A stretch of 64,000 nucleotides of DNA. It comes from Sutcliffiella horikoshii. GTDB lineage: Bacteria; Bacillota; Bacilli; Bacillales; Bacillaceae_I. The stretch spans positions 2,418,001 to 2,482,000 of the forward strand of contig NZ_CP020880.1 in assembly GCF_002157855.1 (NCBI RefSeq), given 5' to 3'. The notes under the pieces were generated by a model that had not been told where the DNA came from, ran no database searches, and saw only the letters and a list, made by a program, of their open reading frames with translations. Made by a program: the position numbers and the translations under genes. Positions 1,110-63,295 of this stretch are shown here, one piece after another; the stretch's first letter is position 1, and each line of letters starts with the position of its first letter.

Positions 1110-1129
1110 TAGTATGGTGGAATTTGGAT

Positions 1130-1600
1130 TCTCCCTTACCGTTTGGGCTTTTGGTGAGTTGCTTCGGGCGTTGAGACGGCTTCTCTCTTACCGTTTTGGG
1201 TTTTGGCGAGCTGCTTCGGGCGTTGAGACGGCTTCTCTGTTACCGTTTTAGGTTCTGGCGAGCTACTTCGGGCGTTGAGACGGCTTCTCTCTTACCGTTT
1301 TAGGTTCTGGCGAGCTACTTGGGGCGTATAGAATGCCTCTATCTTACCAAACAGCCCTTCCCCGAGTTGCTTCGGGCATATAGAACGCCCCTATATTACC
1401 AAACAGCCTTTTTAATAGCTGCTTCGGGCATATAGAACGCAACTATCTTACCAAACAGCCCTTCCCCGAGTTGCTTCGGGCATATAGAACGCCCCTATAT
1501 TACCAAACAGCCTTTTTAATAGCTGCTTCGGGCATATAGAACACCCCTATATTACCAAACAGCCCTTCCCCGAGTTGTTTTGGGCATATAGAAGCAGCCA
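1130..1600. repeat. Tandem array, 52-bp unit, GCTTCGGGC family
   Basis: The region between ypdQ and the next gene is a degenerate tandem array. The marker GCTTCGGG or a close variant recurs at 1161, 1213, 1265, 1317, 1369 and 1421, each exactly 52 bases apart, and continues to about 1600. The left units contain GAGACGGCTTCTCT. The right units contain ATATAG-AACGCCC-CTATAT, a 6-bp stem with a 7-nt loop. Because 52 is not a multiple of three, and stops occur in all frames, it is not coding. The unit length equals that of the arrays near 17, 19, 40, 61 and 63 kb. Confidence 0.85.
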
Positions 1601-1625
1601 TTTAATATCTACCCCCACAATCAAA

Positions 1626-16951: not shown

Positions 16952-17043
16952 TTCTATGTACCTCCGAGAAAAAGTTTGCATCTAGTCATTATCTATTAAT
17001 TAGGGGGTGCTTGTCAAGCTGGGGTATTGGGAGTCTTCATTAT

Positions 17044-17295
17044 GAAGACTTCTCTCCCTCGTTTTCCGCTTCACTGAAGTCTTCATTCGCTTCATGAAGA
17101 CTTCTCTCTTTCGTTTCCTGCTTCACTGATGTCTTCATTCGCTTCATGAAGACTTCTCTCCTTCGTTTCCTGCTTCACTGATGTCTTCATTCGCTTCATG
17201 AAGACTTCTCTCCCTCATTTCCTGCTTCACTGATGTCTTCATTCGCTTCATGAAGACTTCTCTCCCTCGTTTCCTGCTTCACTGATGTCTTCATT
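17044..17295. repeat. Tandem array, 52-bp unit, left part
   Basis: Five units begin with GAAGAC at 17044, 17096, 17148, 17200 and 17252, exactly 52 bp apart and 85-100% alike by eye. Each junction holds GTCTTCAT-TCGCTTC-ATGAAGAC, an 8-bp perfect inverted repeat around 7 nt. The array continues at 18795 beyond the IS256-family element, so the two blocks were one array before insertion. It is not a CRISPR, because the stretch between hairpins is conserved rather than unique. Confidence 0.9.
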
Positions 17296-17392
17296 GATTA
17301 AGTCTATATAATTGTGTAAAAAGAAAGGCCATTATCAATGTCCGTGTTACAATGTGTTCGACGAAAAACAATCACACACGGAGGCAATGATA

Positions 17393-18559
17393 ATGACCAA
17401 CATTAATATTACTATAAATTTGGAACAACTTAAAGCCGAGGTAGAAAAAAGCTCTTTAGGATCCCCGGTAAAAGCATCTTTAGCCCTTGTATTGAATTCG
17501 CTTATGGAGAAAGAAAGGGACGAATATATTAATGCTCTCTCTCACGAGAGAACGGATGACCGCAGAGGATATCGGAATGGCTACTATGAACGAGAATTAA
17601 TTACCGGCACTGGCTCACTCACATTAAAGGTTCCCCGAACTCGTGATGGTGAATTTTCAACTTCTGTATTCCAAAAGTATGAGCGATGCGAACAAGCTCT
17701 AATTCTTTCTATGATTGAGATGGTTGTAAATGGAGTCTCAACTCGTAAAGTTACCAAGATTGTAGAAGAACTGTGTGGAAAAGGTGTATCTAAATCACTA
17801 GTATCTAACCTCACTAAATCATTGGATCCAATAGTTAATGAGTGGAGAAACCGCCCACTAAACACCCTTTATTATCCATACATATATGTTGATGCCATGT
17901 ATATTAAAGTTCGTGAGAACGATAGGGTTGTTTCAAAAGGAGTACTTATAGCTTGCGGTGTAAACGAAGAAGGACATAGAGAGATTATTGGGTTAAGGGT
18001 TACCCATGGGGAATCAGAAGAAAGTTGGTCTAATTTCTTTGATCACCTAAAATCAAGAGGGATACAATCACCTAAGATGGTGATTTCTGATGCACATGCA
18101 GGGTTAGTGGCTGCTATAAAAGAATCCTTTTTAGGAACCTCTTGGCAAAGGTGTTGTGTTCATTTTCTTAGGAATATAATGGACTCCTTTCCTAAGAAAA
18201 ACTCTTCAGAAGCAAAAACAGAACTCAAGGAAATCTTTAGAACATCCAACATTAAATTGAGCCGAGAACTGAAGCGCGACTTTATTGAGAAGTATTACGA
18301 AGTAAAAGGGTTTACTAAGGTAATTGAAACGTTGGATGCTGGCTTTGAAGATGCAATGCAGTTTCATTCTCAAAAAGCTGAGCTTCACAAACACTTACGT
18401 ACAACCAATATGCTAGAAAGAGTAAATAGGGAAATAAGGAGAAGAGAAAGGGTAATTCAAATTTTCCCGAACGATCAATCTGCAATACGTATAATTGGAT
18501 CTGTACTGATGAAAATGGAGGAAGAATGGAGTAAGTCAAAGTATATACACCATATCTAA
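17393..18559 (+). CDS. IS256-family transposase
   Basis: A 388-residue mutator-type transposase starting at ATG 17393 with CGGAGG eight bases upstream. An in-frame ATG at 17312 lies within the inverted-repeat end and is unlikely. Family landmarks are RRGYRNGYYER near the N-terminus, the first catalytic Asp in YIYVDAMYIKV, the second in MVISDAHAGL, the zinc-type segment WQRCCVHFLRN, and the C-terminal NMLERVNREIRRRERV that carries the catalytic Glu. No frameshift or internal stop is present, so it could be active. Confidence 0.93.
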   Translation: MTNINITINLEQLKAEVEKSSLGSPVKASLALVLNSLMEKERDEYINALSHERTDDRRGYRNGYYERELITGTGSLTLKVPRTRDGEFSTSVFQKYERCEQALILSMIEMVVNGVSTRKVTKIVEELCGKGVSKSLVSNLTKSLDPIVNEWRNRPLNTLYYPYIYVDAMYIKVRENDRVVSKGVLIACGVNEEGHREIIGLRVTHGESEESWSNFFDHLKSRGIQSPKMVISDAHAGLVAAIKESFLGTSWQRCCVHFLRNIMDSFPKKNSSEAKTELKEIFRTSNIKLSRELKRDFIEKYYEVKGFTKVIETLDAGFEDAMQFHSQKAELHKHLRTTNMLERVNREIRRRERVIQIFPNDQSAIRIIGSVLMKMEEEWSKSKYIHHI

Positions 18560-18794
18560 GTAAAATAGTTTTTTAATTCCCTAAACGGAATTATGTGAAC
18601 TGTCACATTAATGTTTGTTAATAAAAAAGCGCTTACAGTGACTGGGCCATAAAAAGGGAAAATTTTACCCCCTAGGGGGTAAAGAATACACCCTAAACCT
18701 TTAAGAAGAACAAGACCTGAAAACATAACCCCATAACACATTTAGCATTAGATCTCATTGTAACTATTTTTACACATTAATATGGACTTGACTT
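18560..18794. other. Non-coding right end of the IS256-family element
   Basis: The 3' end of the element holds TAATTCCCTAAACGGAATTA and the palindrome TTACCCCCTAGGGGGTAA, followed by the right inverted repeat. No gene is supported. An open frame on the minus strand at 18556-18741 has no ribosome site. The CCCCCTAGGGGG palindrome may act as a terminator or shield for the transposase. Confidence 0.5.
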
Positions 18795-19275
18795 CTTCAT
18801 TCGCTTCATGAAGACTTCTCTTACTCGTTTCCGGCTTCACTGGTGTCTTCATTCGCTCCATGAAGACCTCTCTCCTTCGTTTCCGGCTTCACTGATGTCT
18901 TCATTCGCTTCATGAAGACTTCTCTCTTTCGTTTCCGGCTTCACTGATGTCTTCATACGCTCCATGAAGACTTCTCTCCCTCGTTTTCCGCTTCACTGAT
19001 GTCTTCATTCGCTCCATGAAGACTTCTCTTACTCGTTTCCGGCTTCACTGGTGTCTTCATTCCGCTTCTTGAAGACTTCTCTCCCTCGTTTCCGGCTTCA
19101 CTGAAGTCTTCATTCGCTTCTTGAAGACTTCTCTCCCTCGTTTCCGGCTTCACTGAAGTCTTCATTCGCTTCATGAAGACTTCTCTCCCTCGTTTCCTGC
19201 TTCAACAAGGTCTTCATTCGCTCCATCAAGACTTCTACAACTCGTTTCCTGCTTCAACAAGGTCTTCATCCCTTA
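18795..19275. repeat. Tandem array, 52-bp unit, right part
   Basis: This is the continuation of the array at 17044. GAAGAC starts fall at 18811, 18862, 18914, 18966, 19018, 19071, 19123 and 19175, i.e. 51-53 bp apart, and two decayed units reach about 19270. Most units keep the GTCTTCAT-7-ATGAAGAC hairpin, though some have CTTCTTG or CTCCATG variants in the arm. A 73-codon frame on the minus strand across it is a by-product of repetition. Confidence 0.9.
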
Positions 19276-19289
19276 CTCCAACCAAAGTA

Positions 19290-19313
19290 AAAAACCTCCC
19301 AAAAGGAGGTTTT
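19290..19313 (-). terminator. Intrinsic terminator of the 64-aa gene
   Basis: AAAACCTCC pairs with GGAGGTTTT around a 4-nt loop, giving a compact terminator just past the stop of the gene at 19318. Confidence 0.85.
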
Positions 19314-21150: not shown

Positions 21151-21557
21151 ATCAATAGTGATCTGTAAGCCATGTTCTGTTCCTTTGTACTGCAAACGGA
21201 TCGCTCCTTGTACGCAGGTGGTAACCATCTGTCTACAGAAACTTAAAGTATCTGTCCCTCTCATCGTTGGATTCCTTAGAGAAGGTGCCCCTACCATTAT
21301 TTGGGTTTCTCGCTCGAGGGGTTTACCTCGTTCCACTCTTACAATTTCTTGTAAGACTACGTCACTGTGGCACTTTCAAGGTATTAACACCATATCTTAA
21401 AGACTTAGGTGCGTTCCCTGCCGTTAGCTTCGTCCGAAAACCAAGCTACCCTAGCTTATTTTTTCGCTAGGCACGAACACTACAGGCATCTCAGCCTGTG
21501 CGAGCATGGACTTTCCTCTACAGCCGAAACTGTAGCGGTTACCCAATCACTATTGAT
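21151..21557 (-). ncRNA. rnpB: RNase P RNA, Bacillus type (type B)
   Basis: The minus strand carries the universally conserved RNase P RNA elements. These are GAGGAAAGTCCATGCTCGC near the 5' end, TGAAAGTGCCACAGTGACG, GGAACGAGGTAAACCCCTCG, GAGCGAGAAACCC and the 3' ACAGAACATGGCTTACAG. ATCAATAGTGAT at the 5' end pairs with ATCACTATTGAT at the 3' end to form helix P1, which sets the boundaries at about 407 nt. It lies between ypsC and gpsB as in B. subtilis. It is the catalytic RNA of tRNA 5' maturation. Confidence 0.97.
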
Positions 21558-35156: not shown

Positions 35157-37859
35157 ATGACTGAAAAGTATCAATCTAGAGAACAGAGACGACAAGCTAT
35201 GCAAGAAGAACGCAGTGCAAAATCCGGCACGAAAAAGAAAGGTCCTAAGAAAGGCTTATTCAAAAAAATATTCTTATCTGCACTTATTATCGGTATTGTA
35301 GGATTATTAACAGGTATAGGTACCTTCGCTTACTATGTTCAGAGCACGCCACCGCTGGATGAGACATTACTAAAAGTCCCTGTTCCTTCCAAAGTATATG
35401 GGATGGATGGAGAGCTGGCTGCTGAAATAGGCGGGCATGAAGCTCGGGAGTATGTAGAATCAGATGAAATCCCTGACCTCGTAAAAGATGCCTTCTTGGC
35501 TACAGAGGATGTACGTTTTTACGAGCATAATGGAGTAGATTACAGACGTTTAGCTGGAGCGGTATTGGCAAACGTTACAAGAGGCTTCGGTGCTGAAGGT
35601 GGAAGTACCATTACTCAGCAGTTAGTAAAATTATCATTTTTATCAACTGATAAAACCTTAAAGAGAAAAGCGCAGGAATTCTATTTGGCTTATCAACTAG
35701 AATCCCGTTTTACAAAAGATGAAATTTTGGAAATGTACTTAAATCGTATTTATTTTTCAAATTATGCATATGGAATTTCCAATGCTGCAATGAATTATTA
35801 TGGGAAATCTCTTGATGAGTTAGAACTGCATGAAGCAGCGATGCTTGCAGGACTCCCACAAAGTCCTAACAACTATAACCCTGTCACAAATCCTGAAAAT
35901 GCTGAGCAACGACGTAACATCGTCTTAACTCTTATGGTGAAGCATGGAAAGATCACAGAGGAAGAAGCAGATGAAGCAAGAGCCATTCCAGTAGACTCCA
36001 CTTTGACAGACGATGTGGAGAAAACGAATTACTCTAATAAGTACAACGCTTTTATTGATCGAGTAATTGAAGAAATATCTGATCAATTAGGCGATGTGGA
36101 TCCTCAGGCAGACGGGCTAGAGATTTACACAACTCTAGATGTGAATGCACAAGAACAAGTGGAATATATCTTATCCGATGAAAGTGGTATTCCACATCTA
36201 GAAAATGAAGATTATCAAGCAGGTATTGCATTGATTGATACCCAAAGTGGAGAAATTCGCGCCATTGGCGGCGGTAGAAACCATATGAAGACAGGTACCA
36301 ATTATGCAACAGATATACGAGTTCAACCAGCGTCAGCGATTAAGCCGATACTTGACTATGCGCCTGCAATTGAATTTTTGGATTGGTCCACTTACCATCA
36401 AATTAATGATGAACCTTACAGTTATTCTTCTGGAACTGAGATTAATAACTGGGACAACAAGCATAAAGGTTACCTAAGTATGCGACAACATCTGGCAGAT
36501 TCCCGTAACATCCCTGCATTAAAAGCTCTGCAAGAAGTTGGTTTGGATAGAGCAAGGGACTTTGCTGTGAAACTGGGCATACCACTAGAAGAAGAAATAA
36601 ACGAAGCATATGCAATCGGTGGATTTTCTAATGGTATCTCCCCTCTTCAAATGGCTGGAGCATACAGTTCATTTGGTAGCGGCGGAGTATATACTGAACC
36701 ATTCGCTGTGACGAAAGTCGTCTTCCAAGATGGTACTAGTGTAAACCTTAATAAAGAGTCAGAAGTTGTAATGAAGGATTCCACTGCTTTCATGATTACA
36801 GATATGCTTAAAACATCTGTACGAAGCGGATTAGCCAATGCTGCAAATGTACCTGGATTAAATATCGCAGGGAAATCAGGAACCACTAACTTCGCTGAGG
36901 ATACCATTTCAGAATATGGAATACCTGAAGGCGGGGTTCCAAGCACCTGGTTTGCTGGGTATACACCAACATATACTGCAACGGTATGGACAGGATTCAG
37001 AAGAACAGGAACAGATAATTATCTGCGACCAATTAACGGTTCAAATCAAGACCAGTATCTATCAAGGATTATCTTTAAACAATTAATGGAGAATATATCC
37101 ACGACAAGCGAAGACAAATCAGACTTCCCTGTTCCTAACAGTGTTGTCCGTGTTCCAATTGAAAAAGGATCAAATCCTCCATTAAAAGCAAGTGAGTTTA
37201 CACCTTCAGATCAGATTACGAATGAATATTTCATAAAGGGAACAGAGCCAACAAAGGTTTCAAAAGAATATGATAAGCTACCTACTCCAACTGGTTTCAC
37301 AGCCCAATATGATGAGGAAGCTAATGTTATTAATCTAAACTGGAAGTATCCTGAAGACCGCTTAGAAGGCGTAACATTTACTATTAATGTAGCTGTTAAT
37401 GAAGGGTCTCCTCAACCTCTGACAGAAACAAAAGATCTTGGTTTGGTTGTGGAATCACCTGATCCTGGGGCTACCTTCACCTTTGAGGTTGTAGCAGTAC
37501 AGGATGAAAACAATGAAAATAAAAGTGACGCAGCAACACAGACGATAACGATTCCTGAAGCGGTCGAAGAGGATGATGAAAGTATCATTCCAGAGATTCC
37601 TGGTGACGGCGAAGAAGAGCCTCCAGGCGATGGCGAAGAACCTCCGGGTGACGGCGAAGAACCTCCGGGTGATGGCGAAGAGCCTCCAGGCGAAGGCGAA
37701 GAGCCTCCAGGCGATGGCGAAGAACCTCCAGGTGACGGCGAAGAACCTCCGGGTGATGGCGAAGAGCCTCCAGGTGACGACGAAGAATCTGATGATGCAG
37801 ATACACAGAGCAACACAAATCGAAATGGACAACGTGATGATTCAGAAGATGACGATTAA
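35157..37859 (+). CDS. ponA: Class A penicillin-binding protein 1 (PonA)
   Basis: A 900-residue bifunctional peptidoglycan synthase. A basic cytoplasmic tail and one membrane segment (~residues 35-62) lead into the GT51 glycosyltransferase (EDVRFYEHNGVD, GGSTITQQLVK). The transpeptidase has its SxxK at SAIK near residue 393, then SRN, and KSGTTNF near residue 572. A fibronectin-III-like domain follows (~710-800). The last ~95 residues are acidic low-complexity repeats of GDGEEPP. It is cotranscribed with recU, 45 bases upstream. GpsB, encoded in this window, is its known partner in B. subtilis. Confidence 0.95.
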   Translation: MTEKYQSREQRRQAMQEERSAKSGTKKKGPKKGLFKKIFLSALIIGIVGLLTGIGTFAYYVQSTPPLDETLLKVPVPSKVYGMDGELAAEIGGHEAREYVESDEIPDLVKDAFLATEDVRFYEHNGVDYRRLAGAVLANVTRGFGAEGGSTITQQLVKLSFLSTDKTLKRKAQEFYLAYQLESRFTKDEILEMYLNRIYFSNYAYGISNAAMNYYGKSLDELELHEAAMLAGLPQSPNNYNPVTNPENAEQRRNIVLTLMVKHGKITEEEADEARAIPVDSTLTDDVEKTNYSNKYNAFIDRVIEEISDQLGDVDPQADGLEIYTTLDVNAQEQVEYILSDESGIPHLENEDYQAGIALIDTQSGEIRAIGGGRNHMKTGTNYATDIRVQPASAIKPILDYAPAIEFLDWSTYHQINDEPYSYSSGTEINNWDNKHKGYLSMRQHLADSRNIPALKALQEVGLDRARDFAVKLGIPLEEEINEAYAIGGFSNGISPLQMAGAYSSFGSGGVYTEPFAVTKVVFQDGTSVNLNKESEVVMKDSTAFMITDMLKTSVRSGLANAANVPGLNIAGKSGTTNFAEDTISEYGIPEGGVPSTWFAGYTPTYTATVWTGFRRTGTDNYLRPINGSNQDQYLSRIIFKQLMENISTTSEDKSDFPVPNSVVRVPIEKGSNPPLKASEFTPSDQITNEYFIKGTEPTKVSKEYDKLPTPTGFTAQYDEEANVINLNWKYPEDRLEGVTFTINVAVNEGSPQPLTETKDLGLVVESPDPGATFTFEVVAVQDENNENKSDAATQTITIPEAVEEDDESIIPEIPGDGEEEPPGDGEEPPGDGEEPPGDGEEPPGEGEEPPGDGEEPPGDGEEPPGDGEEPPGDDEESDDADTQSNTNRNGQRDDSEDDD
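37598..37790 (+). repeat. 21-bp coding tandem repeat in the ponA tail
   Basis: About eight units of roughly 21 bp (GGCGAAGA-CCTCC-GG-GA type) encode GDGEEPP, with one GEGEEPP variant. Synonymous changes separate the units, so the repeat is not newly made. Confidence 0.85.
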
Positions 37860-39844: not shown

Positions 39845-39975
39845 CTCTCCGATAAGTATAACAAATTTCTAGTGATTCTTCATAGGTAATATATTTCAAT
39901 CTGTTGATGGATATTTAATGTTTTTTGAATTACAGGGACAATTCAGATGCAGGTATAACTCTAGCTGAGTTCCAA

Positions 39976-40400
39976 AAGACCTTTCCCGCCCGTGATTGGG
40001 CCAACTGGTGTCTTCATTCCACTTCTCAAGACCTTTCTCAGCTGTGATTAGCGCTACTGATGTCTTCATTCACCATCTCAAGACCTCTCTCAGCCGTGAT
40101 TGGGCCAACTGGTGTCTTCATTCCACTTCTCAAGACCTCTCTCAGCTGTGATTGGGCCAACTGGCGTCTTCATTCCACTTCTCAAGACCTCACTCAGCTG
40201 TGATTGGGCCAACAGATGTCTTCATTCCACTTCTCAAGACCTCTCTCAGCCATGATTGGGCCAACTGGTGTCTTCATTCCACTTCTCAAGACCTCTCTCA
40301 GCTGTGATTAGCGCTACTGATGTCTTCATTCACCATCTCAAGACCTCTCTCAGCCCAGTAAGGTTCTACTCCAGGTCTTATTCCACTTCGAAGTCTTGAG
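39976..40400. repeat. Tandem array, 52-bp unit, AAGACCTCTCTCAGC family
   Basis: The gap between dnaD and asnS is an array. AAGAC starts lie at 39976, 40028, 40080 and 40132, and further at 52-bp steps to about 40340. Typical unit content is AAGACCTCTCTCAGCTGTGA, then TTGGGCCAACTGGTGTCTTC and ATTCCACTTCTC. Two sub-types alternate (TTGGGCCAACTG versus TAGCGCTACTGA). The stem is reduced to GTCTT-AAGAC. No coding frame is supported. Confidence 0.88.
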
Positions 40401-40433
40401 ACGAAACTTTCCTTACAAAAAAGTTCATAAAAA

Positions 40434-49030: not shown

Positions 49031-49069
49031 ATGTAGTGGATAGCTCAAAAAATCATTCAGTTCAATCCC

Positions 49070-49171
49070 TCTGTCCCAGTCCTTTGGATCAAGGCAGATA
49101 TTTGGTTGGTTGTATATATAACTAGAAAAATATGTTGTCAGGTGCAGTTCATTTATAGATACTGCCCAACA
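49070..49171 (-). promoter_or_regulatory. Candidate pan-motif leader RNA (tandem bulged hairpins)
   Basis: Two hairpins are visible on the minus strand. The first (49133-49171) pairs TGTTG-GG-GCAGT with ACTGC-A-CC-TGA-CAACA, with bulged A and TGA. The second (49070-49098) pairs TCTG-CC with GG-GA-CAGA, also with a bulged GA. A TATAAT lies about 15 bases upstream of the first hairpin (49176-49181). Tandem stems with bulged A residues before panB fit what I recall of the pan RNA motif in Firmicutes. This was not tested by alignment. Confidence 0.5.
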
Positions 49172-61153: not shown

Positions 61154-61339
61154 GGTTTCGTTTCACTCTTTCTTTGAGGGATTTGGTGTGTTTCTTTAAA
61201 TATAAGTTTTGAAGTGGTAGAGGTCAAATGTTTAGGGAGAACTCACCTATTTTTCCACCTGTGAACAAAAAATCACTTGTGTATTAGCACATGAGTTTCA
61301 TCATTGACCATTTGAATGAAATTTTTTGTCATTGCTGTC

Positions 61340-61450
61340 TTCAAAATGGTGATGAGAACCTCTCTTCTCTTTTTTCCTCCTCACTCACGTCTTCATGCCT
61401 ACCATGAGGACCTCTCTTTTCCTTTTTTCTCGTCACTGAGGTCTTCATAA
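61340..61450. repeat. 52-bp repeat array, left of the IS3-family element
   Basis: GAGAACCTCTCTTCTC at 61354 and GAGGACCTCTC at 61406 are 52 bp apart. GTCTTCAT-GCCTACC-ATGAGGAC shows the same hairpin with one mismatch. The array continues at 63115 on the other side of the element. The 61154-61339 part of the gap shows no recognisable feature. Confidence 0.8.
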
Positions 61451-61495: not shown

Positions 61496-62377
61496 CTAAG
61501 CGGTCTTAGCCCTGTATTCTAAAGGGCTAAGACCGTTTAAACGTTTTTGATAGCGGTCATGATTATAAAAATGAATGTACTCATCAATCGCCTCTTCAAG
61601 ATCGTCGAACGTTTCATATTTCTCCAAATAATACTTCTCGCATTTCAATGTCCCCCAAAAAGACTCTATTGGACCATTATCAATACATCGTCCAACTCGG
61701 GACATACTATGAGTCATCTTTGCTGTATCAATTTTTCTTTTGAATTCAAGGTGGGTATATTGAAATCCTCGATCACTATGTAAAAGCGGCTGTTCACCAT
61801 TCAACATGGCAGTTGCTTGATCCAAGGTTTTAAACACTAGCTGATTGTTATTTTTAAGTCCTAACACATAACTAATAATAGCCCCATCATATAAATCTCG
61901 AATGGCACTCAAATAAGCCTTTGTAGCCTTACCGAACTTAAACTCCGTAACGTCCGTCACCCACTTTTCATTTGGCTTTTCCGCTTGGAATTCCCGGTTT
62001 AACAAGTTTTGGGCAATATGATTAGGGGTCGCTTTTTTGTAACGGCTCTTTTTTCTTCGAATAATGCTTTGAATGCCTAAAACACGCATTAATCTATAGA
62101 TACGTTTATGGTTATAAGCTTTTCCTAACTTTCGATTCAAAGTAATGGCCACTCTACGATATCCATAAATCCCCTTCACTTTTTGGAATATAGTAGAAAT
62201 CTCTTTCATTAACTTTTCACTTTCCCGTTCACGTTTTGAAGGCTCGCGCTTCAACCATTTGTAATAGGCAGACCGGGCAATCTCCGCAATGTCACAGAGC
62301 ATCACGATAGAAAATCCTTCTTCCTGTTCCAGTTCCTGAATAGCTAAATATTTCTCCTCATGGCGTACCTGACTTAT
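61496..62377 (-). CDS. IS3-family transposase OrfB (frameshift product)
   Basis: The DDE integrase half of an IS3 transposase. Catalytic residues are visible in WVTDVTEFKF (Asp), LLHSDRGFQYT (Asp) and ESFWGTLKCEKYY (Glu). An ATG lies at 62305, but the frame is open upstream and joins orfA in the -1 frame at CAAAAATAAG, continuing KISQVRHEEKYLAIQELEQE. So the natural product is probably an OrfAB fusion. AGGAGG stands just before the junction. Confidence 0.88.
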   Translation of the reverse strand: MSQVRHEEKYLAIQELEQEEGFSIVMLCDIAEIARSAYYKWLKREPSKRERESEKLMKEISTIFQKVKGIYGYRRVAITLNRKLGKAYNHKRIYRLMRVLGIQSIIRRKKSRYKKATPNHIAQNLLNREFQAEKPNEKWVTDVTEFKFGKATKAYLSAIRDLYDGAIISYVLGLKNNNQLVFKTLDQATAMLNGEQPLLHSDRGFQYTHLEFKRKIDTAKMTHSMSRVGRCIDNGPIESFWGTLKCEKYYLEKYETFDDLEEAIDEYIHFYNHDRYQKRLNGLSPLEYRAKTA

Positions 62378-63048
62378 TTTTGCCTCCTTTCGATCTCCTC
62401 TAACTTTTTTAGAAATGCGTTCTCAGCTCGCAATCGTTCATTTTCCCTTTCTAGCCTATGCATCTCTCGTTGTATTTTCTGTTCATGAGAAAGTTCCACT
62501 TCTTCCTTTTTCCTCCCACGTTTATCTCGGAGGGCTTCTTCGCCACCATTCTCATACTTTTTAACCCATTGATACACTTGTTGGTAAGAGACCTGGAAGG
62601 TCTCAGCTGCCTTATGGAAATCCATGCCGTTCTCTAGATAATAGTGCACAATCTCTATTCGTTCATTTAAGGTAGTTTTTCTTTTGTTAGTCATAGTGAA
62701 TTTCCTTCCTTTTGAAGTATCCTTTAACTCTCTATGGCTATTATAATTCTTAATCCACTTTTGGAGGACAGATTTACTTGATATTTCATACTTCCTAACA
62801 AGTTCTTTTTGAGAATACCCACCGTTAAGGTATTCATGGACTACCTTCAGCTTATATTCCTTCGAATACGCTTTTGAGGTAGGGTGTAAACCTTTCTCCC
62901 CCAGACTTTCATATCTATCGATCCAATTATATATAGTGGATGGACTAACATTATTTATATGGCCTAAATCTGTAATAGTGTGCGTGCGATTTTCCCAGGC
63001 TCTTATGACATTGATTTTGACATCGAAAGAGTTAGCTTTTTTTGACAT
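62374..63048 (-). CDS. IS3-family transposase OrfA (helix-turn-helix)
   Basis: A 224-residue DNA-binding half with two or three helix-turn-helix modules (SPSTIYNWIDRYESLG, KSVLQKWIKNYNSHRE and YQQVYQWVKKYENGGEEALR) and a C-terminal leucine-zipper-like segment (LERENERLRAENAFLKKL). It is longer than the usual ~100-residue IS3 OrfA, as in IS150-group elements. The stop at 62374 is within the frameshift site. Confidence 0.88.
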   Translation of the reverse strand: MSKKANSFDVKINVIRAWENRTHTITDLGHINNVSPSTIYNWIDRYESLGEKGLHPTSKAYSKEYKLKVVHEYLNGGYSQKELVRKYEISSKSVLQKWIKNYNSHRELKDTSKGRKFTMTNKRKTTLNERIEIVHYYLENGMDFHKAAETFQVSYQQVYQWVKKYENGGEEALRDKRGRKKEEVELSHEQKIQREMHRLERENERLRAENAFLKKLEEIERRQK

Positions 63049-63114
63049 AATAAATACTCCCCTTAGCAGAAACAGATTTTTAGTTTTTTATCTGTCTACT
63101 TAAAAGGGAGCATA

Positions 63115-63295
63115 TCATAACGACGATGAAGACTTCTCTTCTCCTTTTTCCTTCTCACTCACGTCTTCATAACGAATATGAGGACCTCTCTTCCCGTGTT
63201 TCCACCTGACTCACGTCTTCATAACGACGATGAGGACTTCTCTTCTCCTTTTTCCTCCTCACTCATGTCTTCAACCTAACAATCAAGAATAACCC
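63115..63295. repeat. 52-bp repeat array, right of the IS3-family element
   Basis: Units start at 63128 (GAAGAC), 63180 (GAGGAC) and 63232 (GAGGAC), exactly 52 bp apart. The first junction is GTCTTCAT-AACGACG-ATGAAGAC (reconstructed across the insertion), an 8-bp stem with a 7-nt loop. No gene is supported here. Confidence 0.85.

Follow-up and report, generated by a model that had tools for sequence, protein, structure and literature searches.

The 52-bp constant-length repeat arrays of Sutcliffiella horikoshii: a recurring dyad core, a position behind gene ends and a resident IS256-family insertion sequence

Tandem repeats of 52 nt that hold their unit length constant while varying in sequence, and whose function is unknown, have been catalogued in 176 Bacillus genomes (Subirana & Messeguer 2021, PMC8161180), where repeats of 51–53 nt make up the commonest class (1886 of 4029). 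Here we describe one such array, at positions 17033–19269 of a 64,000-nucleotide stretch of the Sutcliffiella horikoshii genome (henceforth the window: positions 2,418,001–2,482,000 of a 4.28-Mb contig, NZ_CP020880.1), together with its relatives elsewhere in this genome and in other Bacillales. Judging by its sequence, the array almost certainly belongs to the published class: as there, the units are non-coding, 51–53 bp long and mostly present in 4–10 copies, and a genome carries several sequence families that keep the length and vary the sequence. An earlier note on this DNA had known of no described Bacillus repeat of this form, and had named a match to a known, catalogued repeat as what would count against it. 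Such a match exists: B. horikoshii family 22_52_12 (Table 1 of PMC8161180) agrees with the unit of our locus L013 at 52 of 52 positions, N being counted as a match, and with the window-array unit at 35 of 52, and family 20_52_13 of sp. m3-13 agrees with the L013 unit at 48 of 52. Because PMC8161180 catalogues both the class and a matching B. horikoshii family, the kind of repeat and the family were already known.

As to function, a polymerising nucleoid protein and small RNAs have both been proposed in print, and the 52-nt repeats of B. coagulans are transcribed according to RNA-seq data, while the main text of that paper reports no tested function for constant-length repeats (PMC8161180). The same text describes no sequence conservation between species, and short signals within a species that are often accompanied by their reverse in the same repeat. 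The arrays studied here depart from this account in that several genera share a TAGA-N5-TCTA dyad core (AGA-N5-TCT is present in 4 of the 20 Table 1 repeats compared), and in that the arrays are polar, lie behind gene ends and are targeted by one insertion sequence (IS) family. The main text of PMC8161180 uses none of the terms orientation, leading strand, insertion sequence, transpos* and downstream, and polarity, gene-end position, core recurrence and IS targeting were not found there; the comparison is with that paper, the authors' 2020 J Bacteriol paper lying outside it.

With the FtsK/SpoIIIE-orienting motifs the arrays share polarity by replichore (with exceptions at L029, L031 and L032). 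The SpoIIIE-orienting octamer of B. subtilis is GAGAAGGG, which occurs at 0 per kb in the 16 array segments of our genome sample. Plasmid iterons and partition sites are helically phased protein-binding arrays; the 52-bp arrays resemble them in having repeated sites at whole-helical-turn spacing, but have no known cognate protein and are dispersed over tens of chromosomal loci. Repetitive extragenic palindromes (REPs) and bacterial interspersed mosaic elements (BIMEs) are targeted by IS elements. REPs lie behind genes (PMC3733652). The arrays are similar to these palindromes in being extragenic, placed behind genes and used as insertion targets; REPs do not form strict 52-bp head-to-tail arrays. 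Finally, the 20–21-nt constant-length repeats (PMC8161180) likewise have a unit length near whole helical turns; they differ in unit length, and that class is not present at the window array.

The window array and its insertion sequence

Some 14 units of 52 bp make up the window array; the outermost are partial, and every step is 52 bp except for one of 53 (105 bp over two steps, 19001–19106), which bears out the 51–53-bp steps read earlier. The same reading had taken 17044–19275 as a single array with a perfect 8-bp inverted repeat in each unit. The array is in fact broken by an IS256-family insertion sequence at 17296–18793, leaving a left half at 17033–17295 (plus strand; the unit, approximately CTGATGTCTTCATTCGCTTCATGAAGACTTCTCTCCCTCGTTTCCTGCTTCA, defines what we call family A) and a right half at 18794–19269 (plus strand). 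The inverted repeat GTCTTCAT-N7-ATGAAGAC stands for part of the units: it is perfect in nine, has one mismatch in three further ones and is not found in every unit. That the array is non-coding holds, 52 not being divisible by 3, and so does the exclusion of clustered regularly interspaced short palindromic repeats (CRISPR), since unique spacers are absent and the entire 52-bp unit recurs; the 40 arrays of this genome that we checked are non-coding and intergenic by crude open reading frame (ORF) calling.

The insertion sequence lies on the plus strand; its exact ends, GATTAAGTC and GGACTTGACT, were located by eye using the flanking sequence and the target duplication. It carries a 388-amino-acid IS256-family (Mutator) transposase ORF (17393–18559, plus strand; Pfam PF00872, E 3.3e-133) with approximately 53% amino acid identity to the IS256 and IS1542 transposases. 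The 8-bp target-site duplication TCTTCATT, also read by eye on the plus strand, is present as a left copy at 17288–17295 and a right copy at 18794–18801, and falls within a hairpin arm. All eight copies of this 1.5-kb element in the genome (the others are at C1:398574, 496071, 1242093, 1788824, 2026267, 2169214 and 2383994) are inserted within 52- or 53-bp arrays of unlike unit sequence. Assuming random non-ORF targets, 4.8% of which are arrays, the chance of this outcome is about 3e-11.

Sister species hold 13 near-complete relatives of the element (73–97% identity; six in G002, five in G004, one each in G005 and G009). We examined nine (L232, L243, L254, L233, L234, L235, L244, L255 and L283), and eight lie inside a tandem array or at its edge: seven at 51–53-bp arrays and one in a 41-bp array (L244, in G002). 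The relative at L233 has no array. Weaker relatives and IS-end fragments in other genera (L282, L284–L307) have a 52-, 53- or 20-bp array within the retrieved DNA at 7 of 25 loci (L282, L286, L293, L295, L297, L298 and L300); at L307 there is a repeat of period 42, which may be coding. When IS ends were checked at 21 loci, partly picked for the arrays seen there, both ends were present in 19, and 18 of these 19 are at arrays. If fixed-period arrays attract the element regardless of their sequence, this would be an unusual choice of target.

The 20-bp tandem arrays at IS256-family relatives of other Bacillales are those of L286, L297 and L298, and lie on both sides of the IS match at L298 only. 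A right-end remnant of the IS, about 45 bp long, lies inside arrays of G005, G010 and G013 (L239, L247, L248, L257 and L258). In several cases it joins two arrays of differing unit, as though these had been fused through recombination between copies of the IS.

Unit length, dyad core and orientation of the arrays

In a genome sample of 864 kb, made up of the window and 40 stretches of 20 kb at even spacing, autocorrelation yields 16 segments of period 52, corresponding to 15 arrays (the halves of the window array are counted separately), as against one or two segments for each comparison period (non-multiples of 3, not near a multiple of 52). By this comparison, the 52-bp periodicity is not chance. 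Arrays occupy 0.69% of the sampled sequence and 4.8% of the part that lies outside ORFs. Their unit types include family A, an ATAGAA-N3-TTCTAT type (window 1126–1620 and others), a GTCCTCGT / ACGAGGAC type and more, and two arrays of the genome have 53-bp units.

The unit length is strictly kept. Adjacent family A units (spacings below 200 bp) are exactly 52 bp apart in 114 of 118 cases in this genome and in 633 of 681 cases in L035–L154, and the adjacent pairs differ by 6.4–6.8 substitutions. The resulting ratio of indels to substitutions is 0.004 in this genome and 0.008 in L035–L154 (leaving out six irregular spacings of 79–144), as compared with 0.049 in the leaders of six arrays, a value that stems from 12 indels in 15 non-independent pairs. 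The leader spans about 150 bp and includes a strong hairpin, and all nine copies detected in the genome stand beside arrays; it is found at L013:1208-1365 (minus strand) and eight other places, and in it T-rich DNA comes after a GC-rich hairpin of 10 bp. A tail is common to 11 of the 31 array flanks compared. The outer ends of leader and tail are fairly sharp, and for leader, array and tail together we established neither terminal inverted repeats nor a target-site duplication, the features of miniature inverted-repeat transposable elements.

Inverted repeats are over-represented in the units. The best inverted repeat scores 7.3 on average in 54 non-redundant units (51–53 bp, below 72% identity, from the loci gathered by then), as compared with 4.6 in dinucleotide-preserving shuffles, and reaches p<0.05 in 26 of the 54; because many family A units are related, a combined p-value overstates their independence. 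Among the 31 units outside family A, AGA-N5-TCT is present in 15 (shuffles: mean 0.4, maximum 4), and AGA/TCT at any other spacer in at most five. Within family A the stem is conserved in sequence and does not covary: at columns 9/25, 130 units give T-G 66, T-A 53, C-A 10, T-T 1 and C-G 0, and the 90 units of this genome include one C-G, which hints that family A may keep one intact half-site rather than a pair. RNAalifold predicted no structure for the 90 units. A covarying RNA, tried as a candidate, gave nothing within family A by RNAalifold or pair counts, and the structured RNA named earlier as a possible role finds no support there, nor is there an Rfam match at an array.

The core extends well beyond this species. 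Two TAGA-N5-TCTA cores spaced 37–67 bp apart occur in 50 of 397 genomes of the order, spread over 24 of 135 genera. Single matches are often chance, because the reversed control pattern matches 34 of the 397 genomes, nearly all of them once; at least five matches are found in 31 genomes of 16 genera (counted by eye), as compared with one genome (seven matches) for the control. At 23 loci, comprising 22 retrieved and L295, which was added since an array is present, core spacings below 120 bp equal 52 in 45 of 62 cases, in nine genera. A further 6 of the 62 equal 42 (five in one genus), approximately four helical turns, and the spacings of 47, 59 and 61 look like chance. TAGA-N5-TCTA arrays at L336 and L337 (genus g38) have 42-bp steps in place of 52. 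The outer arms differ among genera, and pair with their own partner at a mean of 6.5/12 positions as compared with 4.0/12 for the arm of another genus. The exact double core at 52 bp has no match within the window, the triple core at exact 52-bp steps has 0 matches in viral contigs, and a distant blastn search with the right half-array found no match in plasmids. Elsewhere in the genome, C1:60546-60714 holds a further array with TAGA-N5-TCTA cores at 52-bp steps, outside the orientation count given below.

Among the matches listed for the family A hairpin, all 80 come from strains of Sutcliffiella (Bacillus) horikoshii or from 'Bacillus' sp. RO1 and RO2. The earlier note had suggested a covariance-model search of this and related genomes: run with an RNA model, R1, that scored 150 candidates per genome (the figures given cover the matches listed), it finds family A in 10 of 16 genomes of the genus and in neither of two genomes from the other genera of the family. 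R1 detects family A only; 52-bp arrays of other sequence occur in G011 and in G014, the latter also having 29 R1 matches. Period-52 sampling located one array region per 200 kb in each of G011 and G014, one weak region in 200 kb of G002, and none in G017 (another genus, 200 kb), G113 (80 kb), G152 (100 kb) or G023 (80 kb); the G113 sample was too small, since 238 TAGA-N5-TCTA pattern matches were found in that genome. G186 has five period-52 segments in 140 kb, all in one stretch picked for its IS locus. The gap between asnS and dnaD carries a 52-bp array in 5 of 16 species and a weak two-unit trace in one (G003).

Finally, the arrays are polar. Grouped by position, the R1 matches listed for this genome make up 36 loci, three of which have just one unit listed: all 14 to the left of approximately 2.1 Mb are on the minus strand and all 22 to the right on the plus strand, and GC skew, in sampled stretches, changes sign between 2.051 and 2.138 Mb. 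In another species (G007) one switch point fits 45 of 46 clusters. Taking together the 36 R1 loci, L014, the array at window 39939, eight arrays outside family A (L157, the second array of L163, L165, L170, L171, L189, L192 and window 1126) and four found through the IS (L029–L032), 47 of 50 arrays have one orientation per replichore, the exceptions being L029, L031 and L032; for ten arrays outside family A the orientation was judged by eye from shared motifs. A leading-strand gene aims its 3' end at the 3' side of the array in 36 of 40 arrays (36 of 39 assignable), in 27 of these 36 at no more than 110 bp from the hand-set array end. L029 and L031 break this rule, L032 has a lagging-strand gene and L189 has no ORF in reach. 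Where a convergent lagging-strand gene lies on the other side, the array is still behind a leading-strand gene (8 of 8). Gene context derives from crude ORF calling (longest ORF within 900 bp), with weak calls for example beside L015 and L022. Part of the polarity follows from gene orientation, as the leading strand carries 80% of the ORFs that reach 150 amino acids or more (484 of 605). Nor is polarity special to the 52-bp arrays, because an unrelated dispersed repeat of about 320 bp is equally polar: its 40 strongest matches all follow the replichore (27 minus, 13 plus). This repeat, present in about 40 copies, is partly self-complementary (L017:2850-3790 minus strand, query 428–750).

Proposed phased protein-binding sites and the alternatives

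We consider helically phased protein-binding sites to be the best mechanism, with a probability of roughly 0.45; we infer both the phasing and a dimeric binder. Each unit would carry a dyad-symmetric DNA site, a candidate target of a dimeric DNA-binding protein, as the dyad core suggests. As the unit spacing corresponds to five helical turns (52 = 5 x 10.4), successive units would lie on one face of the duplex, and the dimeric protein bound to them would form a regular nucleoprotein array just beyond the ends of leading-strand genes, with local chromosome (nucleoid) organisation as its likely role. We propose that unit length is under selection because helical phasing is, while the sequence would be free to change provided that the dyad is preserved; duplex phasing would be the simplest reason for a fixed length combined with a drifting sequence. 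The arrays would multiply within a locus through slippage or unequal exchange, nine of them carrying the shared leader, and the IS256-like element would land in them by recognising the phased DNA or the bound protein. A chromosome-binding protein array, one of the roles listed in the earlier note and also proposed in print, is thus our preferred, if unproven, reading. Why length is constant when sequence is free is a puzzle already in the literature, and the dyad core, the gene-end position and the IS targeting make experiments on it concrete. A more speculative extension, in which we place limited trust, is that the 52-bp (perhaps also the 20-bp) arrays of Bacillales are phased nucleoprotein landmarks on a dyad core and that an IS256-family lineage has evolved to land on the phased structure whatever its sequence. 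If true, it would represent a satellite-targeting insertion sequence in bacteria and offer a handle for finding the binding protein.

Several observations weigh against bound, phased sites. We identified no binding protein, though a search for co-occurrence was not made. Within one genome the unit sequences vary from array to array, which would be unexpected if a single sequence-specific protein bound them all; the core pattern is absent from 347 of the 397 genomes of the order, and in 28 of the 54 non-redundant units the best inverted repeat does not exceed shuffles (p 0.05 or more). The outer-arm comparison, which has no p-value, covers 14 rows, and two or more of these resemble chance matches; the highest swapped value (10) tops every own value (8). 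Single arrays are dispensable, because arrays come and go at the orthologous asnS-dnaD site. Moreover, constant length could come in part from common descent and homogenisation.

The chief rival is a neutral or selfish minisatellite: an ancestral array would have spread as leader, array and tail behind terminators, slippage and gene conversion would hold its length, and there would be no host function. This is possible but rather doubtful. The leader copies, all beside arrays, the shared tail, the turnover of arrays between species, the like polarity of the 320-bp repeat and the tolerance of IS copies within arrays would all fit, whereas indels that are 6–12 times rarer relative to substitutions than in leaders, the retention of 52 by unlike units in other genera and the recurrence of the dyad core count against it. 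That the repeats act as a transcribed hairpin RNA (small RNA, sponge, terminator or 3'-end element), an idea already in print, is improbable: although an inverted repeat stronger than in shuffles is present in about half of the non-redundant units and the B. coagulans repeats are transcribed (PMC8161180), the stem columns of family A lack covariation, RNAalifold predicted no structure for its 90 units, no Rfam match falls at an array, a terminator-like hairpin separates the window array from the upstream gene, and RNA hairpins do not need a fixed 52-nt period.

The orientation switch that coincides with the GC-skew switch at 36 of 36 loci among the R1 matches listed, the near-perfect single switch in G007 and an array density that looks higher near the terminus would suit polar marks read during replication or segregation, by an FtsK/SpoIIIE-like translocase or a fork-associated factor. 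We regard this as a slim possibility, given that the 320-bp repeat is just as polar, that gene orientation explains much, that three of the four further arrays found only via the IS break the rule and that the B. subtilis SpoIIIE octamer is missing from the array segments; strict replichore marking as the sole cause of polarity is weakened by that repeat together with L029, L031 and L032. Alternatively, C-rich antisense arrays might recruit Rho and thereby halt antisense transcription into leading-strand genes. The arrays do lie antisense behind gene 3' ends, and their written strand has a C/G ratio of 1.75, as compared with 1.10 in the flanks and 1.21 in the lagging-strand background, but the ratio is near 1 in 2 of the 16 array segments (0.92 and 1.15) and Rho leaves both the fixed 52-bp period and the dyad unexplained, making it very improbable.

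Other features of the window

A terminator-like hairpin with A and T runs, read from the sequence, is located directly beyond the 3' end of the window array (19289–19313). The earlier note had reported the same unit length at four other intergenic loci: 52-bp repeats do occur at four further places, all on the plus strand, but the unit differs at one of them, 1126–1620, which is of the ATAGAA-N3-TTCTAT type, lacks the GTCTTCAT arms and partly alternates as 104-bp dimers. The remaining three are an array of diverged family A units flanked by an asnS-like and a dnaD-like gene (39939–40402), two family A units (61332–61435) and three family A units (63106–63273). An Rfam scan of the window gave two matches, none at an array: RNase P class B RNA (21161–21550) and the pan motif (49067–49168). 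A 21-bp tandem repeat lies within a 900-amino-acid ORF (37598–37787), and a protein with repeated transposase-type helix-turn-helix domains (62374–63048) is encoded between the 61.3-kb and 63.1-kb repeats.

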